This document shows, in pieces, positions 27,187 through 60,587 of a DNA stretch of 64,000 bases. Origin of the DNA: Daejeonella lutea (GTDB lineage: Bacteria; Bacteroidota; Bacteroidia; Sphingobacteriales; Sphingobacteriaceae); NCBI RefSeq assembly GCF_900168015.1, contig NZ_FUYR01000001.1:529968-593967 (forward strand), written 5' to 3'. The notes under the pieces were generated by a model. The model was not told the origin of the DNA. It made no database searches and saw only the letters and a list, made by a program, of their open reading frames with translations. Position 1 is the stretch's first letter, and each line of letters opens with the position of its first letter. Position numbers and translations under genes: made by a program.

Positions 27187-27386
27187 AATGATAAGATAAT
27201 TGAATTTCTGCTCCGCTTAAACGGATGAAATAGGTAAAATGTAAAATATTCGATCGCCCTTGTCCAATTTCCTCAAAATAATCTTACTTTTCCACAAGGG
27301 GTTTTTAATTTGTTTTCCTTAATAAAGTTAGTACATTCGGGTACGTAACCGCAAGTAATTTATATTAGAAGTAAAGCCGTATTTTA

Positions 27387-28643: not shown

Positions 28644-28682
28644 TTGTAACGATGAAATGTTCAGCTTCCTTAGGACAAATGC

Positions 28683-28694
28683 GTTTACGTACAC
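28683..28694. promoter_or_regulatory. Candidate operator word upstream of nagA
   Basis: The 12-mer gtttacgtacac lies about 48 bases before the nagA start. The same 12 bases occur at 11080-11091 in the divergent promoter region at the left end of the locus, and a related ggtacgtaacc lies at 27340-27350. The near-palindromic centre (tacgta) is what a dimeric regulator such as a GntR or LacI family member would bind. No such regulator is in the window, so this is only a candidate. Confidence 0.35.
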
Positions 28695-28741
28695 TGTTTA
28701 ATTTTACATATTGCTAACGATAAAGATTATCACTTTCCAGA

Positions 28742-29932: not shown

Positions 29933-29979
29933 GTTTGAAATCGATTTATAAAAGATTGAGTAGTTAAGACGATAAGGAA

Positions 29980-45800: not shown

Positions 45801-46241
45801 GTTTTGTACACATCTACAAATGCTTACGGTACAAGTTACGGGCTTGATAAGCGGACCATCGAAAATGGTGTTCGTGAAAACGGGGTTTCATTGAATGGTG
45901 TTGATCAAACAGGTGCTCCTTTCGTGAAAACCATTCCAGCCCAGCAGTATTACCAGGGAATTGCATTTGCCATTACCGACCAGTTTGTCTACGATGCTGA
46001 TTTTGTAAAGCTTCGTCAATTAACCCTTGGGTATACATTGCCAAGAACGTTGATTGCCAAGACACCTTTACAGTCAGCCAGCTTGTCGCTAGTAGCAAGA
46101 AACCTTTTCATGCTGCATAACAACGTGCCAAATGTCGACCCGGAATCAAGTTACAGCGTTAGCGGTACTTCATTCGGACTTGAAAACTTTGGAGTACCCA
46201 CAACTCGCAGCTTCGGTTTGAATCTGATGGTTAAATTCTAG
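42852..46241 (+). CDS. SusC-like TonB-dependent outer-membrane transporter with STN domain
   Basis: A 1129-aa protein: signal peptide with long n-region (about 1-42, ending VHSQS), STN domain (about 45-115, signal transduction to FecR), carboxypeptidase-regulatory-like domain (about 128-205: VRGQVTDGTGQGLPGVSIKV), plug (about 205-330: VVVTALGISRDKKALSYA, GNGSFSSDNQPLYVVNGVP) and a long barrel. The STN domain and upstream sigma/FecR genes match the transducer type of SusC. It should import oligosaccharides captured by the following SusD. I kept the first ATG because SusC proteins of this class normally have a long charged n-region before the hydrophobic core. Confidence 0.93.
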   Translation: MIILYQKTLCAEFRRKTIRAMKLIALFTFAVIVQLHAEVHSQSFNFNETNTTVKQMFKQIEKNSKYSIFYRLDQVNLDQKISVLAKQGTIQNVMSQVLQNQPLTFEVVDEVVVVKLSETSAADVRDIVRGQVTDGTGQGLPGVSIKVKGSNIGTSTDASGNYSFNFPVNSTLVFSYIGFITQEIPMNGRSTINVQLADDSQALSEVVVTALGISRDKKALSYALTEVKGDSFTQARENNLGNALSGKVAGVNASSTATGPGGSSRVVIRGNGSFSSDNQPLYVVNGVPINNSNNGTPGTFGGRDGGDGLISINPDDIETLSVLKGGQAAALYGSRAAAGVILITTKSGRGSQGLGVDYNSTFTTDNVITIPDWQYVYGQGSLGLKPTDAAQAMSQGRLSWGPKLDGSSVVQFDGQSRPYVAQKDNNKNFYNTGTTFSNNLALTGGNQNANFRFSVSDMENKGIVPNSSLNRNTFNLAANANINNKITFEGSAQYNIEINKNRTNIGDFTQNPNASVGVMATSLDVRSLEPGYNPTTLREVQWADDPFVANPYFAVNKHQNEDQRRRIIGSFRTRWNITDFLYARGGAGIDYFTRENWQIGATGALTNLAGTYQKGRTTGYETNIEGLLGFDNVFGKFSVNAFVGGNMMYNQSATNSLNSGDLNVPYNYFISNGKSQSFSESFGESAINSLFGSADIGFNDYLYLTLTARQDWFSTLSPTSNHVLYPSAGLSFVASEVWKSKPEWLDFAKIRGSWAQVGGGTPGPYGLDLTYTAGAITHLGQPLMTVNGSTVPNPLKPFTSTTSEAGLETRMLGGRLGLDLTLYQKITTDDIVNATIPNTSGFTSVRLNVGEMRNRGIEMLLSGTPIKSSTGFNWDASLNVAYNDNEVVSIAPGLSTLAGGSPRTQNAFVNHYVGKPFGMVSGYTFRTDASGKIMYNSGSSLPMQSASIVDLGRGVPPLTMGLSNNFRYKNLSLGVLLDGKFGGVLYTSTNAYGTSYGLDKRTIENGVRENGVSLNGVDQTGAPFVKTIPAQQYYQGIAFAITDQFVYDADFVKLRQLTLGYTLPRTLIAKTPLQSASLSLVARNLFMLHNNVPNVDPESSYSVSGTSFGLENFGVPTTRSFGLNLMVKF

Positions 46242-46277
46242 TATTAAAGAAAGCATTCATTGTTAAAATTCATAGTT

Positions 46278-47882
46278 ATGAAATTAAAACGAACATTAAC
46301 AGGACTGACCCTTAAGGCTGGGGTTCTGGCGGCTTTGCTGCTGTCATCCTGTGATAAAGGATTTGAGGAGATGAACAAAAATCCAAACGCATATGTAGAG
46401 CCTGTAATTCCTGCGGTTTTCTCAGCAGCGATCATGAGGCATGCTGGCGTTGGGGATGGCAACACACTTTACCCAAATTCAAAACAGGCCGGGTCTCTGA
46501 TACAATATTTTTCATCATTGAACGCCTTTCAGTGGACAGGTGTAAAGTATCTTTATCAGGGTAAGGCTGATTACAATAATGGTTTATGGAATACAGCTTT
46601 TAGTACTGAACTGAAGGAGGTTCAGCAGATCCTCGATTTGACGAAGGGAAAGACTGATATGGTAAACCAATATAACATCGCCCGCATTCTTCGTGTAGAT
46701 ATTTTACATAGGGTTACAGACCTTTATGGAGATATGCCTTACACCGAAGCTGGACGCGCACTTGACGGGATCTTTAAACCAAAATACGATAAGCAGGCCG
46801 ATATCTATGCTGACATGTTAAAAGAACTTGAGGAAGCATCGAAGGCTCTGGATCCGGCAAAACCGTCTTATGGTGCCGCTGATTTTGTTTACAATGGCGC
46901 ACCTGCCAAATGGAAGTTATTTGCTAACTCATTAATGCTGCGTTTGGGAATGCGCATGACTAAAGCGAATCCAACCCTTGCTGAAACTTGGGTTAAGAAG
47001 GCAATTGCCGGTGGTGTTATGACAAGCAACGCTGATAATGCGAAAGTACCTCACACATCAGCTTCCGGTACTAACTGGAATTGGAATTCACGTCAGATGC
47101 AAACTGTTGAGGGTAATCCTGCTTCTGCAGCGGGATTAGGTTTTTCGAAACTTAATGAAGCCCTGATTAATCGCTTGAAAGCTAAAAATGATCCAAGACT
47201 GCCATTCTACTCTACATTGTGGCAAGGTAATATCAACATTGCAAATCTTCCGGCCGAATCGACCCATGCAAAAGCAAAGGGATTACCGGGTGGATTTGAT
47301 TATACGTCTATTGCTACCGCAATACCGGGTTGGAATGCTAACATGCAACGAGACTACTCTGAAATGAACCAGCATACGATCGCTCATTTGGAAGCTCCAA
47401 CGCATTACCAAAGCTATGCAGAAGTTGAATTTCTGCTTGCAGAGGCTGCACTCCGCGGCTGGGGACCAGGTACGGCAAAGGAACACTTTGATAAAGCTGT
47501 GACAGCAAGTATAACTTCAGCAACCTTATATCCAAACTATGCTCTGGTAATTCCGAATCCAACAGCAGCAGCGGCTAGTTACCTTGCGGCCAATCCCTAT
47601 ACCGGAGGAACTACTGCACAGCAAATGGAACAAATCCACAGTGAAATGTGGGTAGCGTTATTTGGATACATGAATAATATCGAATCTTTCTCAAACTGGA
47701 GACGAACTGGTTATCCCGTGCTAGTCCCTGTTAACTATCCAGGGAACGAAACAGGTGGAATTATTCAGCGCCGCTTGCGCTATCCAGCGGCAGAGCAAAG
47801 CATTAATACCGAAAATTACAATCAGGCTGTAGCGAACCAAGGCCCTGATAATTTCCTAACCAGGATCTGGTGGGATAAATAG
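46278..47882 (+). CDS. SusD/RagB-like starch-binding lipoprotein (SusD-like_2)
   Basis: A 534-aa surface lipoprotein. The lipobox is LSSC (Cys near residue 25), followed by DKGFEEMNKNPNAY, the conserved SusD/RagB start. TPR-like helices with ILRVDILHRVTDLYGDMPYTEAG follow near residue 140, and the C-terminal half has FLLAEAALRGW. It acts with SusC in glycan capture. The frame opens at 46260; the ATG at 46278 starts the lipoprotein signal. A clear terminator lies 17 bases after the stop. Confidence 0.92.
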   Translation: MKLKRTLTGLTLKAGVLAALLLSSCDKGFEEMNKNPNAYVEPVIPAVFSAAIMRHAGVGDGNTLYPNSKQAGSLIQYFSSLNAFQWTGVKYLYQGKADYNNGLWNTAFSTELKEVQQILDLTKGKTDMVNQYNIARILRVDILHRVTDLYGDMPYTEAGRALDGIFKPKYDKQADIYADMLKELEEASKALDPAKPSYGAADFVYNGAPAKWKLFANSLMLRLGMRMTKANPTLAETWVKKAIAGGVMTSNADNAKVPHTSASGTNWNWNSRQMQTVEGNPASAAGLGFSKLNEALINRLKAKNDPRLPFYSTLWQGNINIANLPAESTHAKAKGLPGGFDYTSIATAIPGWNANMQRDYSEMNQHTIAHLEAPTHYQSYAEVEFLLAEAALRGWGPGTAKEHFDKAVTASITSATLYPNYALVIPNPTAAAASYLAANPYTGGTTAQQMEQIHSEMWVALFGYMNNIESFSNWRRTGYPVLVPVNYPGNETGGIIQRRLRYPAAEQSINTENYNQAVANQGPDNFLTRIWWDK

Positions 47883-47980: not shown

Positions 47981-50323
47981 TTAATAAAACAAACTCTCCC
48001 TATCAATTTCTTTCCTTGCTTTTCCCGCTTCAGAAACATACACTCTCAATGGAGCCGGACGCTGAATGCGGAAGTTAGCTGGAGATCCTGCCGGCGGAGC
48101 TGCCGGGGCATTGTAGATATAATTAATTTTAATTTTATGGTTTCCTTTCATAAGAGGGACCGACTCTTCACCCGGAATAATTCGTTGGTCGTCTATCCAT
48201 AATGCCGCATCTGTGAATGAGGATAATGACATATTATAGATGCCATCTGCTGGAATATTCAAATATCCATCATAGATGATGCCTACGTTCGGGTGTGTTC
48301 TTTTGATCGCTTCATTAAGCACGTCTAATGCCTTGCCCGAACTGTCAGCAACGGCCTTGTCAAGTTGTTCAGGCATGCTGAAGGAACCGTTGAAAGTCTT
48401 GAAATTCAAGCCAGCATTAGTACCTGGTATGTTTGTGGCCTGCAATGGTGCTTTATTAAGCATTAGCGTGCGGGTGGATAAACTTCTCCGGCCATCCGGA
48501 GTAATGACCGTTGTTCTGAACTCCCTCTTTTCATTCAAGGGAATTTCAAAGGTAAGTGGCAATTGATATTCCCAATCTGCATCAGAAGGGTTTCGCCCGT
48601 TTAATGTATAATAAATCTTAGCGCCGGGTATCACCGATTTCGGGGCATAGGTGAACTTTGGTCCGACGACCATAGTGTCAATAACTTCCAATGCTGGCGG
48701 AACACGGAAGTTGAAATCCATAGCCTCCAACCTTGCAAAATGCTTCGCAAGCCTTACTTCAGCAAATTGCTTATAGTCTTTATTTGCAACCTCGCTCCAT
48801 GCAATTTCTGACAGTGCAAACATCCTAGGAAACACTTGCAGTTGAAGTTTAGCAAAGGTCGGCACGTATTCTGTCCATAAATTTCCCTGTGCGCCGATAA
48901 CATACTTCTGTTCCTCAGGTGTTAAAACTTTCGAAACAGGATCATAGTTATAAGTGTCGGCAAGTGATGCATATCGAGGAAATGAAACCGGTTCCTGGGA
49001 ATTGCGGCTGTAATAATGATCGAAATATAAGCCGTTTGTTTGAGGACTCATGATGACATTATGTTTTTGCTGAGCTGCTGCAATTCCACCTTGTTCTCCC
49101 TGCCAGCTCATTACTGTGGCGTTTGGAGCCAGACCTCCTTCAAGGATCTCGTCCCACCCAATTATGCTTCTTCCTTTTGAATTGATGAACTTCTCTATAC
49201 GCTGTATAAAATAGCTTTGCATTTCATGTTCGTCTTTCAGATTCAGTCTTTTCTTAAGCTCCTGTGCATATTGTGATTCGATCCAGGGCTGTTTATTAGC
49301 TTCATCTCCACCGATGTGAATGAATTTACTCGGGAATAAGGCCATAACCTCCGTCAAGACCCCTTCAAGAAACGTAAATGTTTCTTCGGTAGGGCAGTAG
49401 ATGCTATTGCCGCGGTTAGGATTTGTAGAACCGGGAGCCGGGATACATTTTAATTCCGGGTAGGCGCGTAAAGCTGCGTCTGAGTGCGCGGGCATCTCGA
49501 TCTCAGGAATGATATTAATGAAGCGTTCTGAGGCATATTGCACTACATCTCTAATTTCATCCTGAGTATAAAATCCGGTGTATGGAACATTATCAGGCCA
49601 GTCCCTGTTACCGCCGAATGAGGTCAATAATCTGGTTCCACCGACCTCTGTTAGCTTAGGATATTTCTTGATCTCAATTCTCCAGCCCTGACCATCGGTA
49701 AGGTGCCAGTGAAAATTATTTAGTTTGTAAGAAGCCATTATATTGATGATTTGCTTTACCTGCGAAACGGTAAAGAAGTGTCTTGATACGTCAAGCATCA
49801 TCCCGCGATATGAGAATCTTGGCTTGTCTTCTATTATAGCACATGGGAGTGTCACGCTGCCTTGGGGAACCACGGGGAAGAGCTGAATCAGCGACTGTAT
49901 GCCATAGAATAATCCGGCATCTTTCCCTATGAGAGTTATTTTGTTTGGTTCAATCGTTAATTTATAAGCTTCAGCGACTAGATTTTCAGAACCAGCACTT
50001 GTTATGATCAGTGTCGTAACGCCACGAACCGGACGGGCTTTGGGATCGTATTTCGATAATTTATTATTGTAATGCTGGTTGGTTAAAAGGAAATCCTTCA
50101 ATAGCAGAACTGATCTTTCAGCAGGATTATCCGCTTTAATCTGCGTGAGCTGACTGAATGTAAATGTGCCGGCTGCTTTTTGAACCGAAAATGGTGCGGG
50201 TATAATTCCCAAATTCGGATCGTCAGATTGTGCTGATGCGAATCCTGATCCCAGGAGCATGAATGCAATAGTATAAAGGCAGGATAAATGCCCCGATTGT
50301 TTATTCGTAAATATTCTAATCAT
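47981..50323 (-). CDS. Beta-N-acetylhexosaminidase, GH20
   Basis: A 780-aa secreted enzyme: signal peptide (about 1-32, ASAQ), GH20b N-terminal domain (about 38-165), GH20 catalytic barrel (about 170-515) with FSYRGMMLDVSRHFF, NFHWHLTDGQGWRIE and the acid/base pair in FIHIGGDEANK (Asp-Glu). This is followed by a chitobiase/hexosaminidase C-terminal-type domain (about 555-640) and a PA14-like domain (about 675-760: YDGYLNIPADGIYNMSLSS). It releases terminal GlcNAc or GalNAc, feeding NagP/NagA/NagB. It is divergent from the DUF485 gene and convergent with the SusCD operon. Confidence 0.93.
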   Translation of the reverse strand: MIRIFTNKQSGHLSCLYTIAFMLLGSGFASAQSDDPNLGIIPAPFSVQKAAGTFTFSQLTQIKADNPAERSVLLLKDFLLTNQHYNNKLSKYDPKARPVRGVTTLIITSAGSENLVAEAYKLTIEPNKITLIGKDAGLFYGIQSLIQLFPVVPQGSVTLPCAIIEDKPRFSYRGMMLDVSRHFFTVSQVKQIINIMASYKLNNFHWHLTDGQGWRIEIKKYPKLTEVGGTRLLTSFGGNRDWPDNVPYTGFYTQDEIRDVVQYASERFINIIPEIEMPAHSDAALRAYPELKCIPAPGSTNPNRGNSIYCPTEETFTFLEGVLTEVMALFPSKFIHIGGDEANKQPWIESQYAQELKKRLNLKDEHEMQSYFIQRIEKFINSKGRSIIGWDEILEGGLAPNATVMSWQGEQGGIAAAQQKHNVIMSPQTNGLYFDHYYSRNSQEPVSFPRYASLADTYNYDPVSKVLTPEEQKYVIGAQGNLWTEYVPTFAKLQLQVFPRMFALSEIAWSEVANKDYKQFAEVRLAKHFARLEAMDFNFRVPPALEVIDTMVVGPKFTYAPKSVIPGAKIYYTLNGRNPSDADWEYQLPLTFEIPLNEKREFRTTVITPDGRRSLSTRTLMLNKAPLQATNIPGTNAGLNFKTFNGSFSMPEQLDKAVADSSGKALDVLNEAIKRTHPNVGIIYDGYLNIPADGIYNMSLSSFTDAALWIDDQRIIPGEESVPLMKGNHKIKINYIYNAPAAPPAGSPANFRIQRPAPLRVYVSEAGKARKEIDRESLFY

Positions 50324-50765: not shown

Positions 50766-51065
50766 ATGAGTAAGACTAAAACACATGAAGTACTTCAAAG
50801 TCCCGCTTTCCAGAAGCTGGTAAAAAACAGATGGAGCATTTCTCTGACATTTACTTTCCTGATGCTTTTTGTATATATCGGGTTTTTAATGGTTGTTGCT
50901 TATCAGAAGGAAACCCTAAAAATGCCGATAGGAGATTCCCTCAACCTTGCAATCATTGTGGGGCTAGGTATTATTATATTTTCCTGGCTAATTACCGGTG
51001 TGTACGTGTATTGGGCAAATAATTACTATGATGCCGCGGTAAAAGAAATTAAGAAAGATCTCTAA
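50766..51065 (+). CDS. DUF485 family small membrane protein
   Basis: A 99-aa protein with two transmembrane segments (about 25-47 and 58-82), the YjcH/DUF485 family. FQKLVKNRWSISLTFTFLMLFVYIGF is the conserved start. It is the usual partner of the acetate symporter gene actP, which begins 24 bases later. Its own activity is not established. Confidence 0.9.
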   Translation: MSKTKTHEVLQSPAFQKLVKNRWSISLTFTFLMLFVYIGFLMVVAYQKETLKMPIGDSLNLAIIVGLGIIIFSWLITGVYVYWANNYYDAAVKEIKKDL

Positions 51066-51089
51066 TCAAACAAATATTCAAAAATTTAT

Positions 51090-52670
51090 ATGTCTCTAAA
51101 CTTACTTCTACAAGCCGCCCCCTCAGGAATTGAATCCACATTGGGAACTGCTAACCCTGTATCTATTGCAATCTTCTTCCTTTTTGTTGTAGTCACATTG
51201 TATATCACATATTGGGCAGCCAAGAAAACAAAAACTGGTTCAGAATTTTACGCAGCCGGCCGTAATATTTCAGGATTTCAAAATGGTCTGGCTCTTGCAG
51301 GCGATTACATGAGTGCGGCGTCTTTTCTTGGTATAGCCGGAATGGTTGCAACCAAAGGCTATGATGGATTAATTTACTCTATCGGATTTCTTGTTGGCTG
51401 GCCATTGATTATGTTCCTTATCGCTGAGCCCTTGCGTAATCTTGGAAAATATACTTTCGCCGATGTAGTTGCCTACCGATTAAGACAAAGACCGATCCGA
51501 ATTGCTTCTTCTGTAGGATCACTCTTAACCATTTCTTTTTACCTGATTGCTCAAATGGTTGGAGCAGGAACATTAATTAAAACATTGTTCGGTCTTGATT
51601 ACGAGATAGCCGTAGTTGTGGTAGGAATTGTAATGACCTGCTATGTTCTTTTTGGCGGTATGATCGCGACAACCTGGGTACAAATTATCAAAGCAGTATT
51701 ACTTTTATCGGGAGCTACCATACTTGTTTTGCTCGCTATGGCGAAATTCAATTTTAGTCCTGGCGATCTGTTTGATTCAGTGAGAACTCAGTATGGGGCC
51801 GATATGCTGGCTCCCGGAGGCTATATCACTAATCCGTTAGACGCGATATCTTTAGGATTAGCATTGATGCTTGGAACGGCCGGCTTGCCACATATCCTGA
51901 TGCGTTTTTATACTGTTCCTGATGACAAAGCCGCAAGAAAGTCGGTATTTGTTGCAACCGGTTTTATTGGTTATTTCTATATCCTGACATTCTTTATCGG
52001 TTTCTCAGCTATGGCTTTGGTAGGTAAACTACCAATTGAAGGCCTGGATAAAGGTGGTAACATGGCAGCACTGTTACTTGCTGAACATGTAGGAGGAAGT
52101 GCATTCCTTGGATTCATTGCTTCCGTTGCATTTGCCACGATCCTTGCTGTTGTTGCAGGGTTAACTTTGTCAGGTGCATCCAGCATTTCTCATGACCTTT
52201 ATGTGCATGTGGTAAAGAAGGGTGTTTCAGATGAGAAAGGCGAGATAAAAGTTGCCAAACGGGCAACAATTTTCCTCGGATTATTAGCAATTGGCTTGGG
52301 GTTGATATTTAAAGGACAAAACGTTGCATTTATGGTGGGTCTGGCTTTCTCGATAGCTGCCAGTGCCAATTTCCCTGCATTGCTAATGTCTATAATTTGG
52401 AAAGGATTCACAACTGCCGGAGCCGTTTGGAGCATAGTCTTCGGCGCTGCACTTTCTTTGATCTTGATAGTACTAAGCCCAACAGTTTGGGTGGATGTAT
52501 TCGGTAACGCTGAAGCAATCTTCCCATTGAAGAATCCGGCATTAGTGTCTATGACATCTGCATTCATTGTGGGAATCATTGTTTCCCTGATGAAGCCTGA
52601 TCAGGAAGCTGCGGATAAATTTGAGAGTGAAAAATTAAGAACTTACCTAGGTGTTGGTTCAGAGAAATAA
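51090..52670 (+). CDS. actP: Cation/acetate symporter, sodium-solute symporter family
   Basis: A 526-aa inner-membrane protein with about thirteen hydrophobic helices. [27 protein letters not shown] near residue 55 and the [15 protein letters not shown] segment near 360 are SSS-family landmarks of ActP. It should import acetate or another short monocarboxylate with Na+ or H+. It is paired with the DUF485 gene, as in other genomes, but no acetyl-CoA synthetase gene is nearby. The next gene's upstream open frame overlaps its end by about 20 bases, but that gene's real start is beyond the ActP stop. Confidence 0.88.
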
Positions 52671-52689
52671 TTACAATAAAAAAAATAAG

Positions 52690-53898
52690 ATGAAAAGAAG
52701 AGACCTCATAAAAGGACTTACATTACTGCCTTTGGCTGGAGGTGCAATTGCTGAAACCGCCCAGGCAGCTATCTCTCCTGCACCAGCGGCAAAAAGAGAT
52801 TTATATAAGGAGCTTGGTGTACGAACCTTTATTAATACAAGAGGGACCATCACATTTATGACAGGTTCATTAATGCACGACGAAGTGGTTGACACGATCA
52901 AGAATTCTTCTAAATCATTCTGTATGATCGATGAGCTTCAGGATAAGGTAGGTGCAAAAATTGCGGAGCTAACACATGCGGAAGCAGCTACAGTAACGTC
53001 CGGGGCATTTTCTGCTTTGATGCTGGGAATGGCAGGTGTTTTAACCGGGTTGGACGCGAAGAAAGCGGCTATGCTTCCCCATTTAGAGGGTACCGGCATG
53101 AAGACCGAGGTGATTATGCAGAAAGGTCATGATATTGGATATAATCAGGCACTAACTAATTGTGGCGTGAAGATCATCCAGGTCGATGGGGTAGAGGAGC
53201 TTGAACGTACTATTTCCGATAAAACAGCGCTGTTGCACTTCCTGAATGCTAATGCAAATAATGGAAAGATTGGTCATGAAGAATGGTTGAGGATTGCAAA
53301 GAAGCATAACATTCCCACCATGATTGATATGGCGGCAGATGTGCCACCTGTAGAGAATCTTTGGAAGTTTAACGACTTAGGATACGACCTGGTATGTTGT
53401 TCCGGAGGAAAGGCAATTCGCGGACCTCAAAGTTCTGGAATACTGATGGGTAAAAAAGACCTGATCGCTGCGGCACGCCTGAGCGCCTCCCCTCGTTCCA
53501 ATACGATCGGGCGGGGTCATAAGGTTAATAAAGAAGAGATACTAGGCTTATATGTAGCTCTTGAACGATTTATCAACACTGCCGACTCAGAATGGAAATT
53601 ATGGGAAGACCAGATCGCAACGATTGATAATACGGTTAAAGTATTAAAAGGTGTAACAACTCGGAAGTTCGTTCCCCCATTTGCTAATCATGTTCCTACA
53701 TTAGAAGTGAAATGGGATCCGGCAGTGGTAAAGATTAGCACTCAGCAAATGACGGAAAACCTCCGAAACGGCAATCCTTCTATTGAAATTAACCCTGGTA
53801 GAAATAGTATGTCAATTGCAACTTTTGTAATGATCCCGGGCGAGGAGAAGATCGTTGCCCGCAGGTTGAAAGAGGAATTTACTAAGGCTGCGGTTTAG
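52690..53898 (+). CDS. Tat-signal PLP-dependent SelA-like enzyme (DgaE/aminotransferase class V-fold)
   Basis: A 402-aa fold-type I PLP enzyme related to the selenocysteine-synthase-like group that includes D-glucosaminate-6-phosphate ammonia-lyase. The PLP lysine is K241 in SGGKAIRGPQSSG. HLEGTGMKTEVIMQKGHDIGYNQAL near 132 and MIDMAADVPP near 213 are family segments. The N-terminus MKRRDLIKGLTLLPLAGG is a twin-arginine signal, so it is probably exported folded with PLP. It may deaminate or eliminate from an amino acid or amino sugar acid in the periplasm; the substrate is unknown. It starts 19 bases after actP. The frame opens at 52651, but the Tat signal fixes the start. Confidence 0.82.
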   Translation: MKRRDLIKGLTLLPLAGGAIAETAQAAISPAPAAKRDLYKELGVRTFINTRGTITFMTGSLMHDEVVDTIKNSSKSFCMIDELQDKVGAKIAELTHAEAATVTSGAFSALMLGMAGVLTGLDAKKAAMLPHLEGTGMKTEVIMQKGHDIGYNQALTNCGVKIIQVDGVEELERTISDKTALLHFLNANANNGKIGHEEWLRIAKKHNIPTMIDMAADVPPVENLWKFNDLGYDLVCCSGGKAIRGPQSSGILMGKKDLIAAARLSASPRSNTIGRGHKVNKEEILGLYVALERFINTADSEWKLWEDQIATIDNTVKVLKGVTTRKFVPPFANHVPTLEVKWDPAVVKISTQQMTENLRNGNPSIEINPGRNSMSIATFVMIPGEEKIVARRLKEEFTKAAV

Positions 53899-53915
53899 AA
53901 GCCTTGTTGATATTG

Positions 53916-53952
53916 AAAAGCCCGATAACTTTGATGGTTATTGGGCTTTTTT
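53916..53952 (+). terminator. Terminator after SelA-like gene
   Basis: The arms aaaagcccgataac (53916-53929) and gttattgggctttt (53937-53950) pair over 14 bases with one G-T position and a 7-base loop, followed by T residues. It ends the DUF485-actP-PLP gene group. Confidence 0.82.
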
Positions 53953-54022
53953 AAGTATCAAGTATCAAGTATCAAGTATCAAGTAGCAAGAATCAAGTAG
54001 CAAGAATCAAGTATCAAGTTTC
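53953..54022. repeat. Heptamer tandem repeat, ten copies
   Basis: Ten consecutive copies of the 7-base unit aagtatc run without gaps from 53953 to 54022, directly after the terminator T-run. Four copies are perfect at the start; later copies alternate aagtagc and aagaatc, then aagtatc and aagtttc. It is non-coding. The copy number could vary by slippage. The following 54023-54075 bases contain no gene. Confidence 0.85.
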
Positions 54023-54079
54023 ACGAATGGGATGCCTAGGTTGCTTCACCGTGCCTCCTCGCAATGCATGGCAACCATT

Positions 54080-54120
54080 AAAAACTCAGTGAGCTGGATG
54101 GGTATCGCTGTCCAACTCAC
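54080..54120 (-). terminator. Terminator overlapping the lldP stop
   Basis: On the minus strand gtgagttgga (54120-54111) pairs with tccagctcac (54098-54089) over ten bases with one G-T pair and a 12-base loop, followed by TGAG and a T5 run (54084-54080). The first arm includes the lldP stop codon at 54117-54119. Confidence 0.75.
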
Positions 54121-55784
54121 TTCACAACCATATCCGAAAACGGCACAACATAAGCCTGCAGAAATACCAATAGTCCAACTAATGCGGCAAGCGCGATACT
54201 ATGAAAAAATACATAGCGCAGTATCTGACCTTCGTGACCATACCAGTTGGTAGCTGTACTCGCTACAACTATACTCTGTGCATCGACCATCTTTCCCATT
54301 ACACCGCCCGAACTGTTTGCAGCTGCCATCAAGATCGGATTTACGCCGGTTTGCTTAGCCGTAATTGTCTGAAGACTTCCGAACAGCACGTTCGAGGCTG
54401 TGTCTGAACCCGTCAGGGCCACACCCAGCCAGCCTAGCATTGTGCCGAAGAAGGGATAAAGCACACCTGTTTTTGCCAGCGCGAGCCCCATAGTAGCATC
54501 AGCCCCCGAGTACTTGGTAACATACCCCAGTGCCAGCATCGCAGCAATGGTGATCAGTGAAAACCGTACACGCCAGAAGGTTTGTCCATATACTCTAAGC
54601 ATTTCTTTGAGCGAATATCCAATCGCAAACCCTGCAATAATTGCGGCTACGAGAATCCCGGTTCCGGTTGCAGATATCCAGTTGAGTTTGAAAACGGCTT
54701 CTTCAGTTTTGGCCGGCTTATCTGCCGTCGGTTCCGGCGCAATTGGGGGAGTTCGTTTAACCAGATTATGTAGATAGGCCACTTTGTATTCGGGTGCGGA
54801 TATTTTGTTTAATGCAGTCTTAACGGTTGGCACTCCCCAGGCAAATATGAATATTACGAGTATTGCCCATGGTGTCCAGGCTCTAATCATATCTTTACGT
54901 TTCACTACAGCAGGTTCTTTACCTATTGCCACAGTATCTTCGGAAACAGGTAGTTCCCAAATGGTTTTCGGCTGCCAGAACTTAAGTAGCACGATTAAAG
55001 AAACGATAGATGCTATCGAAGCAAAAATATCAACCAACCATGGGCCGTGATAGTTAGATACTAAAAATTGGGTTACTGCAAAGGACAAGCCCGCGGTTAA
55101 TGCAGCCGGCCAGACAGCGACCATGCCTCTAAAACCCGCCATTGCCCAGATCACCCAGAATGGAACGATGAGCGAAAAAAACGGAAGCTGACGGCCAACC
55201 ATTGCAGAAAGCTGGTGAATGTCAATTCCGGTAACCGCAGCAAGGGCGATTATCGGCGTTCCTAAAGCACCGAAAGCAACCGGAGCGGTATTGGCTATTA
55301 AAGAAAGTCCGCAAGCTGCCAGCGGCCTGAAACCAAGTTGAATAAGGATAGCAGCCGTTATCGCAACGGGTGTGCCGAAGCCAGCGGCTCCCTCAAAAAA
55401 TGCCCCGAACGCAAAAGCAATCAATATCACCTGGATCCGTGGATCGGGCGCAATAGTCGATAAATGCATTCGTATCAACGTAAAGAGGCCTTTGTCAACG
55501 GTAAGCTGATATAGGAAAATCAAATTGAGTACGATCCACCCGATAGGGAAAAGCCCATATGCACTTCCATAAAGTGTAGTGGCACTTACTGCGGTTCCTG
55601 GCATTTTAAATATAAATAGGGCAACAGCAATGGCAACGACTAATCCTAGTATCGCTGCAAGGTGGATCCGCATATGAAAAATCGCAATGGATCCGAGGAG
55701 GACAATGATCGGCAGAGCAGCCAGTATCGTTGACATCCAGGGGTTATTCAAAGGGTCGTAATTTTGGGCCCAGATTGTTTCCAT
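54117..55784 (-). CDS. lldP: L-lactate permease (LldP family)
   Basis: A 555-aa inner-membrane protein with about fourteen hydrophobic segments of the LctP/LldP family. Family landmarks are AFFEGAAGFGTPVAITAAILIQLGF near residue 132, LSLIANTAPVAFGALGTPI near 160, and GVALTGSDTASNVLFG near 455. It imports L-lactate, and family members also take D-lactate or glycolate. It is convergent with the SelA-like gene and may serve lutABC at 2.5-5.2 kb. Upstream of it lies a repeat array (55833-56132). Confidence 0.92.
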   Translation of the reverse strand: METIWAQNYDPLNNPWMSTILAALPIIVLLGSIAIFHMRIHLAAILGLVVAIAVALFIFKMPGTAVSATTLYGSAYGLFPIGWIVLNLIFLYQLTVDKGLFTLIRMHLSTIAPDPRIQVILIAFAFGAFFEGAAGFGTPVAITAAILIQLGFRPLAACGLSLIANTAPVAFGALGTPIIALAAVTGIDIHQLSAMVGRQLPFFSLIVPFWVIWAMAGFRGMVAVWPAALTAGLSFAVTQFLVSNYHGPWLVDIFASIASIVSLIVLLKFWQPKTIWELPVSEDTVAIGKEPAVVKRKDMIRAWTPWAILVIFIFAWGVPTVKTALNKISAPEYKVAYLHNLVKRTPPIAPEPTADKPAKTEEAVFKLNWISATGTGILVAAIIAGFAIGYSLKEMLRVYGQTFWRVRFSLITIAAMLALGYVTKYSGADATMGLALAKTGVLYPFFGTMLGWLGVALTGSDTASNVLFGSLQTITAKQTGVNPILMAAANSSGGVMGKMVDAQSIVVASTATNWYGHEGQILRYVFFHSIALAALVGLLVFLQAYVVPFSDMVVK

Positions 55785-55832
55785 GTTTAGTTCGAGAAAG
55801 GTTATAATGTATGGTTGATATTAGTGCATTTA

Positions 55833-56132
55833 TATGTGGCAGCGCCCTTTTTAAAAGTGGCTTCGCCCGGTAATCAGTATTCAGTTCCTTCGGCCAGTGA
55901 CTAAACGCTTTAAGTAGTGGCTTCGCCCTTTTTAAAAGTGGCTTCGCCCGGTAATGAGTAATCAGTGCCTTCGGCCGGTAACTAAACGCGTTTTTTAAGT
56001 GGCTTCGCCAAGTAATCGGTAATTAGTGCCTTCGGCCGGTAACTAATCGCCGTAAGCAGTATGGTACGTTAGCACTGATTACTGATCACTGATTACTAAT
56101 CTCCCGATTACCCAATTACCTATTACTCTTCA
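55833..56132. repeat. Intergenic repeat array E (GGCTTCGCC / CCTTCGG units plus dyad arm)
   Basis: Three roughly 60-base direct repeats begin near 55856, 55937 and 55998. Each carries gtggcttcgcc, then ggtaatcagtaatcagt-like sequence, then ccttcggcc. Shorter partial units (gtggcagcgccctttttaaa near 55836 and gtggcttcgccctttttaaa near 55917) are interleaved. The right part at 56072-56083 (gcactgattact) is the exact complement of 55957-55968, so a long hairpin can form. The array fills the gap between lldP and the ridA stop codon. A related array lies at 56689-56914. No gene is seen. Confidence 0.8.
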
Positions 56133-56135
56133 CCC

Positions 56136-56630
56136 TCACTTCAACGGATTACTCGGACTATTAGCCAGTTCAAATAAACACTCGATTTCTACAGGTATAT
56201 TGTCAGGAAGCGAACCGAAACCTACAGCACTCCGCACACCAATACCGTTCTCAGTTCCCCATACCTTTGCAAAAAGTTCACTGCAGCCATTTATAACTTT
56301 AGGATGTGCCTCAAAATCAGACGTGCAGTTAACCATCCCAAGGACTTTAATAACTCGTTTAACCTTATTGAGGCTGCCAAGATTAGTTTTTATAGTAGAC
56401 AGGATGGTCAGGCCAACTTGCTGCGCAGCAAACTTTCCTTCTTCAAGTGTCATATCCTTTCCAATTCTTCCCCTGATAAGTTGCTTGTCGTTTTGTACCG
56501 GTCCATGTCCTGAAACGTAGAGGTACTTTCCGTCAATTAAGCAGGGCTTATAAACACCAATCGGCGCTGGGGCAGGAGGAAGGGTTAATCCAAGCTTTTC
56601 AAAATTTTGATCTGGAGTTGGGTTTTGCAT
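56136..56630 (-). CDS. RidA-family reactive intermediate/imine deaminase
   Basis: A 164-aa cytoplasmic protein of the RidA/YjgF/YER057c group (a longer subgroup). Conserved segments are VGVYKPCLIDGKYLYVSGHGP-like near the N-terminus, TILSTIKTNLGSLNKVKRVIKVLGMVN near residue 87, and GIGVRSAVGFGSLPDNIPVEIECLFE at the end, where the Arg binds the substrate carboxylate. RidA hydrolyses enamine/imine products of PLP-dependent lyases, so its place near the SelA-like PLP enzyme is meaningful. Repeat arrays lie immediately on both sides. Confidence 0.9.
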   Translation of the reverse strand: MQNPTPDQNFEKLGLTLPPAPAPIGVYKPCLIDGKYLYVSGHGPVQNDKQLIRGRIGKDMTLEEGKFAAQQVGLTILSTIKTNLGSLNKVKRVIKVLGMVNCTSDFEAHPKVINGCSELFAKVWGTENGIGVRSAVGFGSLPDNIPVEIECLFELANSPSNPLK

Positions 56631-56688
56631 TTCGTAATGTCTATGGTTTATGTTTAAAAGTAAGATAATTTTTTAAATGGAGGGCAGC

Positions 56689-56914
56689 TTTAAGTGGCTG
56701 CGCCCGGTAATAGGTAATCGGAGCCTCCGGTCAGTACTAACCGCTGTTTTTTAAGTCGCTTCGCCCTTTTTTAAGTGGCAGCGACCGGTAATCATTAATC
56801 GGAGCCTTCGGCCAGTACTAAACGCTCTTTATGCATATTGGTACGTTTGCACTGACCACTGACCACTGATTACTGATTACTGATCACTTATTACCCGATC
56901 ACCCGATCACCTCT
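56689..56914. repeat. Intergenic repeat array F, related to array E
   Basis: Two long units begin near 56692 (taagtggctgcgcccggtaat) and 56778 (taagtggcagcgaccggtaat), each ending in a ccttcgg- or cctccgg-type stem and agtactaa. A short partial unit with cgcttcgccctttttt lies between. The right arm from about 56839 (ttggtacgtttgcactgacc) matches 56061-56082 of array E. It reaches the stop codon of the sugar-dehydrogenase-like gene at 56915; the ctcttcacctcttc repeat runs into that coding end. The gap holds no gene. Confidence 0.75.
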
Positions 56915-58375
56915 TCACCTCTTCGGCAATGTCACCTTCCAAATCCTCCCTCCAGCCGAACCCTCAGCTCCATGCTCGATCACATAAATTTTATTATCGA
57001 GCAGAACTGCGTCCACCGGGGCATTAAAGTTATTTGCGATACTGGTAGTTTTCATGTAAAAATTGTCGGCTGCGGCATTGTACTGCATGTCCATGTGGAG
57101 GAGATCTTTCCCACCTTTTCGTAGCAGGTTAGTGCCCGGACGGTCGGAGCCGCCGCCATATCTGAAAACAAAACCATCGCCTTTAAATTCAGGTGAAAGA
57201 GCGTTCTTCGTGTCGAAAACTAATCCGAGTGGCACGCTGTGCGCGTTGAATGTACTTACGGAGCGGCCGGTTATGTCGCCATCTACAATTTTCCCGGTAG
57301 CAATATCACGGTACTCATTAGCTGCCGGTCCGATGTTCTGGACACCTGCCGAGAATTTAACACCCGCAGGGATTTTTGGAAAATCAGGATCATTTCTGAA
57401 ATATTTAACTACCCATGCGTGCGCTCCCGGGCTAATGAACGGATCGGTAGCCGGATCTGGCACCCATGGAGAGAACTGCTGCGGATTTTCAACGCCTGCC
57501 ATTTGCCATGGGAATCCAAAATGATGGCCTTGTCTGATCCAGAACATTTCTTCTGACTGGTCGTAGTCGCCTGAATTCACCACGCCAAAAAGGTTATTGT
57601 TTCCATCGAATGCCATATCATAGGCATTCCGTATCCCCTCGGCATAAATGTATCCCAGTTCTTTCATTTTTTCAGTTTCAGCAGGCAAAACCAGGTTTTC
57701 TGCACCAACCGGGAACCGGTAAACTTTAGAAGTCAATCCATTGTCGCGGGCGTTCGGGTAAGCACCTCGGTTATCCTGAACTTCTCCGTGGTCTGTCCGG
57801 GCTCCCGAATTTACATAGATGTATTTTTTGTCGGGACTGATCTCCAGGGCATTCCAGCCATGATCAAAAGTTGTGGCATTGGTACCATATTCAACGGTGT
57901 TAAAAACTTCGACTAATGCCGGCTTTGCTTTTGACACATCATATTTTACCATCCTCCCCTTAGTTCCTTTGCCGCCGTTTGCACTGATGTTCCCACATAA
58001 ATACAGGGTATTGTTTAAAAAAGTCGCACCCTGAAGCCTCGTGATACCGTGATCGGCCGCCGAGAATACTTTATGTTCTGCGGCTTTAGGGGTATCAAAA
58101 TCGGATATGCGAAAAACATTTCCATCAAATGTAGAGTACCAAAATTCCCCCGTCTTTGGGTTGCGTATAAGCCTCACCCCGAGTGGTCCGATGTCCATTA
58201 CTTTTTCAATGGTGACATCCGGACGCAGCGATACCGGAGTTTTTATGGGTGCCACCTGTCTGGTGGGTGCAGGCGAAGGTGCTGTAGTTGTTTGTTGGGA
58301 AGCAGCAGATAGTGCACATGACAAAAACAGGGCTAAAAGCCCTGTTTGTCTGATGCTGCAATTAAATGATTGCAT
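56915..58375 (-). CDS. Secreted glucose/sorbosone dehydrogenase-like beta-propeller protein
   Basis: A 486-aa protein with a signal peptide (about 1-26, SAASQ). The propeller resembles PQQ-dependent glucose/sorbosone dehydrogenase-type proteins: HGITRLQGATFLNNTLYLCGN, YIYAEGIRNAYDMAFDGNNNLFGV and HHFGFPWQMAG. The PQQ-ligand residues cannot be confirmed by eye, so a binding or lactonase role is also possible. It is co-directional with the amidohydrolase gene 24 bases upstream, so they probably share an operon. A Pro/Thr/Ala-rich linker follows the signal peptide. Confidence 0.75.
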   Translation of the reverse strand: MQSFNCSIRQTGLLALFLSCALSAASQQTTTAPSPAPTRQVAPIKTPVSLRPDVTIEKVMDIGPLGVRLIRNPKTGEFWYSTFDGNVFRISDFDTPKAAEHKVFSAADHGITRLQGATFLNNTLYLCGNISANGGKGTKGRMVKYDVSKAKPALVEVFNTVEYGTNATTFDHGWNALEISPDKKYIYVNSGARTDHGEVQDNRGAYPNARDNGLTSKVYRFPVGAENLVLPAETEKMKELGYIYAEGIRNAYDMAFDGNNNLFGVVNSGDYDQSEEMFWIRQGHHFGFPWQMAGVENPQQFSPWVPDPATDPFISPGAHAWVVKYFRNDPDFPKIPAGVKFSAGVQNIGPAANEYRDIATGKIVDGDITGRSVSTFNAHSVPLGLVFDTKNALSPEFKGDGFVFRYGGGSDRPGTNLLRKGGKDLLHMDMQYNAAADNFYMKTTSIANNFNAPVDAVLLDNKIYVIEHGAEGSAGGRIWKVTLPKR

Positions 58376-58399
58376 TTGTATTTTTCTAATTAATGGATC

Positions 58400-59734
58400 T
58401 TATTGTCTTGGGCCACCATTTGCTGGCCTTACTCTTGGCGCGTTTGGTATTACATTTGGCTCAGCAATAGCATTCAGGTTGTAAACAATTCTTCCTGCCC
58501 GGATCGTCATTTCTGTTTCAAGACGTTCTTTTCCGGCAATCTTACCGTCACGTGCATAATAACCGAAATCACCTTTTCTGAGAGTGAAGATAGCGATATC
58601 AGCATCGGAGCCCACTGATAGATTCCCCAATTCTGGGCGTTTTATCTGCTGTGCCGGATTCCATGTTGAAGCTTTGATGACATCTTTAAATGGCATTCCC
58701 ATTGCCATAAATAGTGACATAATATTAGGCATGTTCTTCATGGCATTGTTCATACTTCCTGTGTGCAGGTCAGTGCTGATCGAATTAGGATAGAAGCCAC
58801 TTTTGATAGCCGGGATACCCTGAGAGAAAAGGAAGCTGGAACCGCCAAAACCTACGTCGAATATTACGCCCCTTTTTTGTGCTTTGATCGCATAATCCTT
58901 AACCTTTTTCGTGTCAACATTTACGATCGATTCGCGTCCGCTTTGAGTGGTCAGGCCGACTTGCGGATCTCCTCCAAACGCATGTGTATACATGTCGCCA
59001 GGGCGGAATTTTACGTTAAAAAGTGAATCAAGCGGCAGGAATGGCGTAGCCGAGCCGAAATCCACCATGATAGGGATATTTGCGAGTCTTCCCGCCTCCA
59101 GGGCCCTGTCCGTAGGAATCCAGGAGTGCGCTAAAGGCCCGCGGCCGCTGAAATGCGCCAGCTTAACGCCAACGATATGCTCCGGGTATTTCTTCGCCAT
59201 ATCGGCTGTGGCTTTCGGATCCATGTGCTCTATGTCACTTTCGTTCCGGCTGTCCATACCTTCACTAACAATGTTAAGCATTGCCAGTACTCGTGTTTGC
59301 GACTGATCAATAGTTTGTTTCTTATATAACTCAAAACTTTTGTAACCCGGACTGCCGGCATCTACAACAGTGGTAACGCCTGCTGGAAAAGTAAAGCCGT
59401 CTGCAGGGAGACCAGCACGGGCATTCATATAACCTGTACCATCCTGTCCCCAAAAGAAGTGCACATGCAGGTCGATCAGTCCCGGAGTAATATACATTCC
59501 TTTTGCATTAACTAACTGAGTGCCCTGGCTACCATCAATGTTTTTAGCAATCAGTGCAATTTTGCCGTCCTTAACGGCAATATCCATTACCGCATCCACA
59601 TTGTTTTTAGGATCGATGATATGACCGCCCTTGATGACAATACTATAAGGCTTAACTGGCTCGTTTTGCTGAGCCATAAGCCCTGTGCAGAAGAAGATCA
59701 GCATAGAAAAAAGTAAGAGTTGTTTTTGTTTCAT
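58400..59734 (-). CDS. Secreted amidohydrolase/deacetylase-family metallohydrolase
   Basis: A 444-aa TIM-barrel amidohydrolase with a signal peptide (about 1-21, GLMAQ). Metal-site landmarks are LIDLHVHFFW (HxH), the lysine in VGVKLAHFSGRGP (candidate carboxylated Lys), MYTHAFGG and the terminal Asp in STDLHTG. It resembles the EF_0837-type amidohydrolase/deacetylase group, whose genes are often beside SelA-like PLP enzymes, as here. It likely releases an acyl group from an N-acyl compound outside the cytoplasm. The upstream region carries a fecR-like leader motif (59847-59905). Confidence 0.83.
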   Translation of the reverse strand: MKQKQLLLFSMLIFFCTGLMAQQNEPVKPYSIVIKGGHIIDPKNNVDAVMDIAVKDGKIALIAKNIDGSQGTQLVNAKGMYITPGLIDLHVHFFWGQDGTGYMNARAGLPADGFTFPAGVTTVVDAGSPGYKSFELYKKQTIDQSQTRVLAMLNIVSEGMDSRNESDIEHMDPKATADMAKKYPEHIVGVKLAHFSGRGPLAHSWIPTDRALEAGRLANIPIMVDFGSATPFLPLDSLFNVKFRPGDMYTHAFGGDPQVGLTTQSGRESIVNVDTKKVKDYAIKAQKRGVIFDVGFGGSSFLFSQGIPAIKSGFYPNSISTDLHTGSMNNAMKNMPNIMSLFMAMGMPFKDVIKASTWNPAQQIKRPELGNLSVGSDADIAIFTLRKGDFGYYARDGKIAGKERLETEMTIRAGRIVYNLNAIAEPNVIPNAPRVRPANGGPRQ

Positions 59735-60041: not shown

Positions 60042-60587
60042 ATGACTGAGATGATATTTATAGATGACACAGAACTGATGGATCGTTTGCGTGCAGGAGA
60101 TGATCTGGCCTTGAAAGTCATTTATAAAAAATATTGGAGCTTGCTCTACAACTCAGCATTCAATATGCTTCAGGATCAACAGGCCTGCGAGGACATTATC
60201 CAGGAACTTTTTATCAACCTTTGGAATAAAAGGGAGCAGATAGAAATAAAAGCTTCATTGAAATCTTACCTTTTTGCATCTGTTCGTTACGAAGTATTCC
60301 GCCAGGTACGTCACGGCTCGGTGAGAGAGGATATTTTTGAGAATATTCAGGATCGACTGCAAACACCATCGGAGTACGGAAATATTGAACATCGTGAGTT
60401 GCTTTCATATGTCAATTCAATCGTGAATAATCTCTCTGAAAAATGCAAGGTAGTTTATAAGCTGAGCCGAGAAGAACAGCTTTCTCATAAAGAGATAGCT
60501 ACCAAGCTGGACATTTCTACCAAAACTGTTGAAAATCACCTGAATAAGGCCTTACGTCAACTGCGGATTTCCCTCGGGCTGTGGTAA
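60042..60587 (+). CDS. Orphan ECF-type RNA polymerase sigma factor
   Basis: A 181-aa sigma-70 family protein: region 2 with YKKYWSLLYNSAFNMLQDQQACEDIIQELFINLWNKRE (about 26-65) and region 4 helix-turn-helix with SREEQLSHKEIATKLDISTKTVENHLNKALRQLR (about 140-175). It is similar in plan to the sigma factor at 41006, but no FecR or SusC follows, so its regulator must act from elsewhere or it is constitutive. The minus-strand leader motif upstream may be its target. Confidence 0.9.
   Translation: MTEMIFIDDTELMDRLRAGDDLALKVIYKKYWSLLYNSAFNMLQDQQACEDIIQELFINLWNKREQIEIKASLKSYLFASVRYEVFRQVRHGSVREDIFENIQDRLQTPSEYGNIEHRELLSYVNSIVNNLSEKCKVVYKLSREEQLSHKEIATKLDISTKTVENHLNKALRQLRISLGLW

Follow-up and report, generated by a model that had tools for sequence, protein, structure and literature searches.

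A candidate periplasmic module for acetylated amino sugars, centred on a Tat-type SelA-like enzyme, in Daejeonella lutea and other Bacteroidota

Introduction

What could a lyase that depends on pyridoxal 5'-phosphate (PLP) do outside the inner membrane? PLP lyases and RidA proteins are usually regarded as cytoplasmic, and the enamine products are reactive. The question is raised by a gene cluster of Daejeonella lutea (Bacteroidota; Sphingobacteriaceae), located at positions 50,766 to 59,734 of a 64,000-nucleotide stretch of contig NZ_FUYR01000001.1 (assembly GCF_900168015.1, positions 529,968 to 593,967), which was analysed as a whole and is called the window here. The cluster codes for a SelA-like PLP enzyme with a twin-arginine translocation (Tat) signal, a secreted amidohydrolase (AH), a RidA family protein, a secreted sugar-dehydrogenase-like protein (GSDH-like) and the transporters ActP and LldP. 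A preliminary description of the sequence had proposed that deacylation delivers acetate to ActP, that PLP-driven elimination or deamination follows with RidA cleaning the imine, and that LldP takes up the product. Our analysis somewhat favours the view that the locus is one copy of a periplasmic catabolic module, whose likely substrate is a 2-acetamido-2-deoxy-hexose of the GlcNAc or GalNAc type.

Results

A SelA-like PLP enzyme with a twin-arginine signal

Translation of the SelA-like gene from the ATG at position 52690 gives MKRRDLIKGLTLLPLAGG, a twin-arginine signal with the two arginines and the apolar core. In keeping with a Tat substrate, the genome has one TatC, and all seven SelA-like proteins of this genome start with MKRR from the likely ATG, as judged by eye. 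For relatives, export was scored by a crude, sequence-only scan for two arginines plus an apolar run (RR) or for a hydrophobic N-terminus, excluding eight loci that repeat already sampled contigs. Presumed cytoplasmic proteins served to gauge false alarms: 2-keto-3-deoxy-galactonokinase (DgoK) scored in 2/11 cases for RR and 0/11 for a hydrophobic N-terminus, and 2-keto-3-deoxy-6-phosphogluconate (KDPG) aldolase in 0/11 and 3/11, respectively. The RR pattern was found in 133 of 134 SelA proteins, the exception being truncated by the locus edge, and in 15 of 16 proteins of a longer SelA type. These features support the exported PLP enzyme envisaged in the preliminary description, which had called such an enzyme unusual; this holds, but precedents exist in PvdN and PtaA (PMC6206403).

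By sequence the protein is closer to DgaE (7lc0, E 5.5e-29) than to Cap15 (4.3e-24), and it reaches the cut-off of neither DgaE family profile, that is TIGR01437 (Table 1) or NF047797 (140.9 vs 600 bits). Its structure model (pLDDT 80.9) matches DgaE, SelA and threonine-aldolase chains in fold. In the VIA comparison it aligns with Cap15 (8t7j) at Z 34.6 (2.3 Å over 324 residues) and with DgaE at Z 33.5 (3.8 Å over 332 residues), the next chain reaching 23.8. In an alignment of 52 SelA and 7 long SelA rows, from which rows of 380 residues or less were excluded, the PLP lysine is kept throughout (59/59). A single row (1/59) has a counterpart of His-163, the proton donor of DgaE, in a gappy loop where any HH likewise occurs in 1/59, and the phosphate-binding Arg cluster of DgaE (301/332/346), judged at Arg-301 alone, has an equivalent in 2/59. 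The H163A variant of DgaE is reported to be still active and to release the enamine into solution (PMC9529869). Because this proton donor is missing, the SelA-like enzyme is predicted to release a reactive enamine as well, which offers a reason for a need of RidA.

The SelA gene family is strongly expanded in genomes of the genus: several of them (G077, G092, G098, G104, G109 and others) hold up to 12 scored SelA matches, 12 being the most that were scored per genome, and up to 28 first-look candidates. Long SelA paralogues of the D. lutea genome (L061:6422-8116, L057:5494-7059, L064:10477-12156, L065:10228-11868) possess an additional C-terminal stretch of ~130-150 residues, in which the sole member scanned, that of L061, has no Pfam match.

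A deacetylase-type amidohydrolase with a secretion signal and RidA proteins with export-type N-termini

AH possesses a Sec-type signal peptide and exceeds the curated cut-off of the deacetylase family NF006689 (Table 1), which substantiates the secreted amidohydrolase or deacylase of the preliminary description; its score against TIGR03583, the EF_0837 family, is below cut-off (208.6 vs 432). PDB matches are 2ogj (3.9e-43), 8je0 (6.1e-39) and 2ics (2.4e-37). The AH alignment, recounted after removal of the eight repeat loci, has 136 rows, and at least 135 of them retain H90, H92, K191, H251 and D322; the HxH, Lys, His and Asp are taken by us to be metal ligands. A hydrophobic N-terminus is present in 138/138 AH proteins scanned, and all ten NF006689-type amidohydrolases of the D. 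lutea genome, nine of which exceed the cut-off, have signal-type N-termini by eye. On these sequence grounds AH is predicted to be an N-acetylhexosaminate deacetylase.

The RidA protein of the window scores above PF14588 (Table 1) and PF01042 (34.2 vs 27.3). R133 and E148 are kept at ≥97% in 34 rows, and the Arg presumably acts in the active site; this table, like the one of 27 RraA-like proteins mentioned below, still includes the eight repeat loci, so that both totals are inflated. The protein has no export signal: an in-frame stop lies shortly 5' of its ATG with no start codon in between. The preliminary description had pointed to the resulting mismatch of compartments, and rightly so for this protein, but the worry is largely answered by its paralogues. 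The genome contains 12 RidA domain matches in 11 frames. Judged by eye, 8 of these frames start with an N-terminus of the Tat, Tat-like, Sec or lipoprotein type, and the window protein and two others do not. The scan finds RR in 70/74 Tat-type RidA proteins, a hydrophobic N-terminus in 26/26 of a second exported type and neither in the window type (0/6). Moreover, Tat-type RidA is found wherever Tat-SelA is found in the family and phylum samples described below, including own-genus genomes in which the block lacks RidA. PLP-driven elimination or deamination with a RidA partner, as originally suggested, is thereby consistent with the sequences. In a metagenome-assembled genome (MAG), a PF14588 RidA domain and a seven-bladed PF10282 lactonase are fused in a single open reading frame of 520 residues (L149:4972-6534, minus strand).

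A sugar-dehydrogenase-like propeller

The GSDH-like protein falls marginally below the PF07995 cut-off (Table 1), which a paralogue in the same genome exceeds with 29.7 bits; altogether, 12 of 13 GSDH-family matches of the genome are above cut-off. Sequence searches with phmmer and with a profile gave no PDB match for the window protein. Its structure model (pLDDT 70.2, pTM 0.76) retrieves sugar dehydrogenases in the first 13 Foldseek rows and in the first 12 VIA rows (Z 25.5-29.4, identity only 12-19%), VIA row 13 being a Diels-Alderase with Z 25.3, tied with the lowest sugar dehydrogenase. As modelled, the protein has an sGDH/Asd-type propeller and is a sugar dehydrogenase of the pyrroloquinoline quinone (PQQ) type. 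H172, R249 and N250 are invariant in 16 GSDH rows, and we assume that they serve PQQ binding or catalysis; alignment of the GSDH profile to canonical members by hhalign is weak (probability 23.5) and matches only the Arg. The N-terminus of the window protein is of the Sec type, and hydrophobic N-termini were scored in 60/60 proteins of the GSDHc2 type and 29/32 of the GSDHw type. The GSDH-like protein is predicted to oxidise an (N-acetyl)hexosamine, yielding the lactone. The secreted sugar-dehydrogenase-like protein of the preliminary description is thus present, with its role changed: it probably stands at the front of the scheme and makes the aldonate.

Co-occurrence and linkage in Bacteroidota

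Among 151 genomes of the family, SelA, Tat-RidA and AH each occur in the same 25, which cover 6 of 25 genera; none of the three was found in five of the own-genus genomes listed. Among 395 genomes of the phylum, SelA and Tat-RidA occur in the same 8. The E-value thresholds behind these counts were chosen by the analyst and differ (SelA up to 1e-20, Tat-RidA 1e-30 and AH 1e-60 in the family; 1e-20, 1e-20 and 1e-60 in the phylum), and the two samples share some genomes.

Linkage was assessed around the best 80 of 518 relatives, which form 77 loci, all Bacteroidota by title with several MAGs named to family or phylum only, and therefore lean to close relatives. The count took a single locus from each genus or MAG lineage, 34 in all, with the own genus and the 11 loci shorter than 15 kb (out of 77) set aside; some of the MAG lineages are possibly kin, and among the DgoK loci the tree shows L144 and L149 to be almost identical, as are L158 and L168. 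Twenty hand-chosen round coordinates in 14 genomes served as controls. Neighbours were labelled by their best BLAST match against an own reference of 57 rows, and the labels neutCDase (a protein without Pfam match), XdhC and HATPase are guesses that were not used as findings. AH lies near SelA in 31/34 loci compared to 1/20 controls (p 1.5e-10), any RidA in 26/34 vs 2/20 (p 1.9e-6), any GSDH in 26/34 vs 0/20 (p 9.7e-9), RraA in 10/34 vs 0/20 (p 0.0055) and an ACS-type transporter of the major facilitator superfamily (MFS) in 8/34 vs 0/20 (p 0.017). SelA, AH and RidA thus constitute a recurring Bacteroidota module, and the neighbourhood conservation that the preliminary description had named as a check is found for SelA, AH, RidA and GSDH in lineages beyond the own genus.

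The gene runs, 115 in number, are not independent, a few own-genome stretches overlap, and the eight repeat loci were excluded here too. In Dyadobacter (L120) the order is SusC, SusD, SelA, AH, GSDHc2, cytochrome c, GSDH and Tat-RidA; in L143, L144, L157 and L158, some of them near relatives, it is SusC, SusD, SelA, AH, DgoK, KDPG aldolase and MFS; and in L082-L084 and L086-L088 SelA runs include AH, Tat-RidA, an RraA-like protein and an SBF transporter. Hydrophobic N-termini were scored in 31/31 RraA-like and 25/26 SGL lactonase proteins. Further clusters, each named from one scanned member, are of the CBM9 type (runs of 21 loci), PF10282 lactonase type (7), M81 peptidase and gamma-glutamyltransferase type (5 each), PIG-L type (3) and enolase type (2).

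Three other proteins were seen near SelA. One of ~430 residues with a twin-arginine N-terminus (L066:12631-13923, L104:6949-8247, L109-L111, L156; two scanned, no Pfam match) stands mostly in loci that also have M81 peptidase and gamma-glutamyltransferase genes. An enolase-superfamily protein resembling galactonate dehydratase (below cut-off; L103:8752-9993, plus strand, also L108) has a twin-arginine N-terminus and lies in a SelA-AH-DgoK locus, and a PIG-L protein of the GlcNAc de-N-acetylase family (L140:8819-9853, plus strand, also L107 and L179) has a Tat-like N-terminus.

A paralogous locus (L062, L063) lies ~32 kb past the window end and comprises SusC, SusD, Tat-SelA, AH, a BNR protein, DgoK (PF05035), KDPG aldolase (TIGR01182, 177 vs 156), an MFS protein nearest to a galactonate transporter model yet below its cut-off (245.8 vs 395), and a secreted RraA-like protein. 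Some 15-23 kb beyond the paralogous SelA, past a second SusCD-like pair, follow cytochrome c, a secreted SMP-30 lactonase, Tat-RidA, again cytochrome c, a GSDH paralogue, an RraA-like protein and an SBF transporter. The stretch L062:2499-2954 reads as unknown bases.

A proposed order of reactions

Protein families, export-type N-termini, conserved catalytic residues, co-occurrence in genomes and gene linkage are direct results of the computation; from them we infer the substrate, the order of steps, the dependence on RidA and every transport step. The secreted PQQ-type dehydrogenase, which stands beside cytochrome c in some relatives, would oxidize C1 of the amino sugar, and a lactonase would open the lactone. 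The secreted COG3964-type AH would then take acetate off the resulting N-acetylhexosaminate, which is an N-acetyl-D-alpha-amino acid and a more likely substrate than amides in general. Subsequently, the Tat-exported SelA/DgaE-like enzyme would eliminate water and ammonia from the hexosaminate, and the released enamine would be hydrolysed to a 2-keto-3-deoxy acid by an exported RidA whose gene lies in another part of the genome. Acetate is predicted to return through ActP. For the keto acid, or for the products of its cleavage, entry might be through a lineage-specific transporter, here perhaps LldP, for which a 2-hydroxy or 2-oxo acid is a possible cargo. Elsewhere an ACS-type MFS protein may take this part, followed by DgoK and KDPG aldolase, or alternatively a secreted RraA-like putative aldolase with an SBF transporter. 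In each case the chemistry of a family could use the product of the preceding step.

A more far-reaching version, which we regard as tentative and rather doubtful, is that many Bacteroidota carry out a complete catabolism of amino sugars outside the inner membrane, from quinoprotein oxidation feeding cytochrome c, through opening of the lactone and deacetylation, to clearance of the enamine by exported RidA. The PLP elimination would proceed without phosphorylation, and a constant front end would be combined with a swappable back end. In some lineages secreted RraA-like aldolases would cleave the 2-keto-3-deoxy acid already in the periplasm, so that small acids would cross the inner membrane.

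Layout of the locus and neighbouring genes

The genes listed in Table 1 for the cluster are all intact open frames and each scores in its family, the GSDH-like gene marginally below cut-off, so that the composition given in the preliminary description is confirmed. DUF485, ActP and SelA on the plus strand (gaps of 24 and 19 bp) converge on AH, GSDH, RidA and LldP on the minus strand (GSDH-AH 24 bp, RidA-GSDH 284 bp, LldP-RidA 351 bp), with 218 bp between the converging SelA and LldP genes; hence there are two runs rather than one operon. DUF485 proteins are partners of ActP-type symporters. As possible signs of co-regulation, predicted promoters and terminators are at shuffle level (24 vs a mean of 19.8, sd 4.0, and 7 vs 9.4, sd 4.0, respectively). 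The block of DUF485, ActP, SelA, LldP, GSDH and AH recurs within the genus at 8 more loci (L072-L079), of which 3 have RidA at the block position and 6 have the ECF sigma factor adjoining AH. The GH20 and SusCD genes that adjoin the block would possibly fit an amino sugar (GlcNAc or GalNAc) as the source.

Table 1. Features of the locus and its surroundings (positions in the window; scores in bits)
Feature	Position	Strand	Evidence
DUF485 small membrane protein	50766..51065	+	PF04341 98, cut-off 28
ActP-like sodium:acetate/monocarboxylate symporter (SSS)	51090..52670	+	PF00474 360.2; NF006903 742.8, below cut-off 750
Tat-signal SelA/DgaE-like PLP enzyme, predicted hexosaminate (D-amino acid) ammonia-lyase	52690..53898	+	TIGR01437 172.2, cut-off 385.3
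LldP/GlcA lactate permease family	54117..55784	-	TIGR00795 537.3, above cut-off 341
RidA family (PF14588 type), no export signal, predicted cytoplasmic enamine/imine deaminase	56136..56630	-	PF14588 58.7, cut-off 35
Secreted PQQ-sugar-dehydrogenase-like propeller (GSDH-like)	56915..58375	-	PF07995 24.9, cut-off 25
Secreted COG3964-type amidohydrolase (AH), predicted N-acetylhexosaminate deacetylase	58400..59734	-	NF006689 402, cut-off 371
GH20 beta-hexosaminidase, neighbour	47981..50323	-	PF00728 378.6
SusC/SusD outer-membrane uptake pair, neighbour	42852..47882	+	orthologous pair beside L072 block, 90-91% identity
Extracytoplasmic function (ECF) sigma factor, divergent from AH	60042..60587	+	TIGR02985 141.7, above cut-off 126.4

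Elsewhere in the window, positions 2512-7147 encode a LutB/LldF-family lactate oxidation protein (TIGR00273, 425 vs 445) and a malate synthase relative; frames flanking the former look LutA/LutC-like by eye. Positions 26287-30735 and 38707-40727 encode an SMP-30-type lactonase, NagA, a NagB-like protein, D-mannonate oxidoreductase and UxuA, which are genes of ordinary amino-sugar and uronate catabolism.

Weighing the module against other explanations

Several results weigh against a periplasmic amino-sugar module. Some concern the enzymes themselves. The top fold match of the SelA model is Cap15, an oxygen-dependent PLP enzyme, 1.1 Z units above DgaE. A His a few residues from the lost His-163 occurs in 43/52 SelA proteins (0/7 long SelA) and could replace it, so that enamine release stays a prediction. 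In 136/136 AH rows the position of one His of 2ogj/2ics is taken by Asp (131) or Glu (5), and the metal site therefore differs from theirs. No PqqE above cut-off was found in the genome, so that PQQ would need an outside supply. The aldolase-type D-x20-R-D motif occurs in only 12/27 RraA-like proteins and is missing from that of L063 in the own genome, which keeps the RraA-like proteins putative as active aldolases. The RidA of the window is not exported, and RidA is missing at this place in 5/8 further own-genus loci. Others concern the context. AH occurs without SelA in 4/12 AH-bearing genomes of the phylum sample, all of one genus, the other 8 being the SelA genomes. Three of the eight ACS-MFS matches are only 22-23% identical, and, comparing the 34 loci with the 20 controls, several linkages are not significant: DgoK 5 v 0 (p 0.088), KDPG aldolase 5 v 1 (0.27), SBF 7 v 1 (0.12), SGL lactonase 5 v 0 (0.088), cytochrome c 2 v 0 (0.39) and SusC 12 v 4 (0.19). 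NagA (above cut-off) and the NagB-like protein of the window represent the ordinary GlcNAc route. Finally, genes for M81 peptidase and gamma-glutamyltransferase accompany one variant of SelA; for this variant they point to substrates resembling peptides, and they suggest that the substrate differs between paralogues.

The transporters deserve separate consideration, since ActP and LldP are found in 0/34 loci of other lineages (0/20 controls) and, among the loci compared, accompany SelA in the own genus only. Acetate remains a likely by-product made beside ActP, as the preliminary description had it, but this linkage does not extend beyond the genus; its proposal that LldP takes up the product fares worse, and LldP as a carboxylate importer was set aside for want of support beyond the genus. 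One might hence regard ActP and LldP as ordinary acetate and lactate transporters that happen to lie beside an unrelated deacetylase/PLP locus, all the more as the genes form two converging runs and a LutB-like lactate oxidation protein is encoded elsewhere in the window. However, ActP ends just upstream of SelA, and the DUF485-ActP-SelA / AH-GSDH-LldP block is kept in all 8 further own-genus loci, which makes coincidence quite improbable. A further alternative, which we likewise consider very unlikely, takes SelA for an oxygen-dependent PLP enzyme of the Cap15 or PvdN kind that modifies a small molecule in the periplasm and does not serve carbon metabolism. The structural ranking speaks for it, as does the precedent of PvdN and PtaA, exported PLP enzymes that modify pyoverdine (PMC6206403), but DgaE is nearer by sequence, and the families linked to SelA comprise a deacetylase, sugar dehydrogenases and enzymes of keto-deoxy acids.

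The strongest competitor, though unlikely in our view, is an exported pathway for N-acyl-D-amino acids, whose origin would be peptidoglycan, peptides or secondary metabolites and in which AH would deacylate these compounds, SelA would deaminate beta-hydroxy acids such as D-serine or D-threonine, RidA would clear 2-aminoacrylate and the sugar dehydrogenases would come from neighbouring sugar loci. The score of AH in a deacetylase family would suit this pathway, as would the M81 peptidase and gamma-glutamyltransferase clusters, and OngC, the deaminase of the Ong pathway discussed below, accepts D-serine and D-threonine besides 2-amino-2-deoxygluconate (GlcN1A). Yet the frequency of GSDH near SelA compared to none in the controls, the presence of DgoK, KDPG aldolase and MFS in the same runs, SusCD in 12/34 loci (not significant) together with the CBM9 cluster, and the fusion of a lactonase to RidA speak against it.

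Discussion

The best reading, by analogy, is that the module would work like the Ong pathway, as a periplasmic version of cytoplasmic Ong/Dga chemistry. As described in PMC9537276, the Ong pathway of Pseudoalteromonas prydzensis, which belongs to oxidative chitin use, deacetylates 2-acetamido-2-deoxygluconate (GlcNAc1A) and deaminates it to 2-keto-3-deoxygluconate (KDG) without phosphorylation; growth was lost when ongD, its RidA gene, was deleted, the role of ongD being left open, and the pathway is reported there for Gammaproteobacteria and one Betaproteobacterium. On this reading both systems share deacetylation of a 2-acetamido-aldonate followed by PLP deamination, a RidA gene in the cluster, an SSS transporter, GH20, TonB-type uptake and a KDG kinase. 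However, the Ong enzymes are predicted to be cytoplasmic, whereas export-type N-termini, read from sequence alone, prevail here. OngB is an amidohydrolase of the D-aminoacylase type (PMC12017989) and belongs to another family than AH; OngC is a fold-type III PLP enzyme and thus of another family than SelA; and the aldonate arises from a lytic polysaccharide monooxygenase in Ong, whereas a PQQ-type dehydrogenase is proposed here. With enzymes of other families and another predicted compartment, the locus is not a member of Ong.

DgaE is a homologous PLP enzyme with the same PLP lysine and the same predicted elimination, but it acts on a phosphorylated acid after uptake by the phosphotransferase system and has His-163 and the Arg phosphate cluster, whereas the SelA-like protein carries a Tat signal and has neither His-163 nor Arg-301. 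The COG3964-type amidohydrolases 2ogj, 2ics, 8je0 and TIGR03583 (EF_0837) are homologous to AH, which differs in being secreted, in the Asp/Glu replacing one His of 2ogj/2ics and in its 10 genome copies; EF_0837 forms a neighbourhood with EF_0838 and EF_0839 that includes a DgaE-like and an aldolase-like protein. The soluble PQQ aldose and glucose dehydrogenases 2g8s, 1cq1 and 3das share the fold and perhaps the H172/R249/N250 pattern with the GSDH-like protein, at the low identity of the VIA rows and with the window protein marginally below PF07995. PvdN and PtaA of pseudomonads resemble SelA in being PLP enzymes folded with their cofactor and exported by Tat; they differ in acting on pyoverdine, are not catabolic, and no exported RidA partner is mentioned for them in the passages of PMC6206403 consulted. 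Within the open-licence literature, subscription papers being outside the scope, we found no description of an exported RidA partner or of a periplasmic hexosaminate pathway.

The investment of D. lutea in these families is considerable, with 7 SelA, 10 AH and 8 RidA frames that have export-type N-termini in a 4-Mb genome. If the proposed module is real, the periplasm can host PLP elimination chemistry, with exported RidA as a safeguard, and Bacteroidota would possess a route for oxidised amino sugars that runs parallel to the Ong pathway. This would also provide a function for many genes that are filed merely as SelA-like, amidohydrolase or Rid family.

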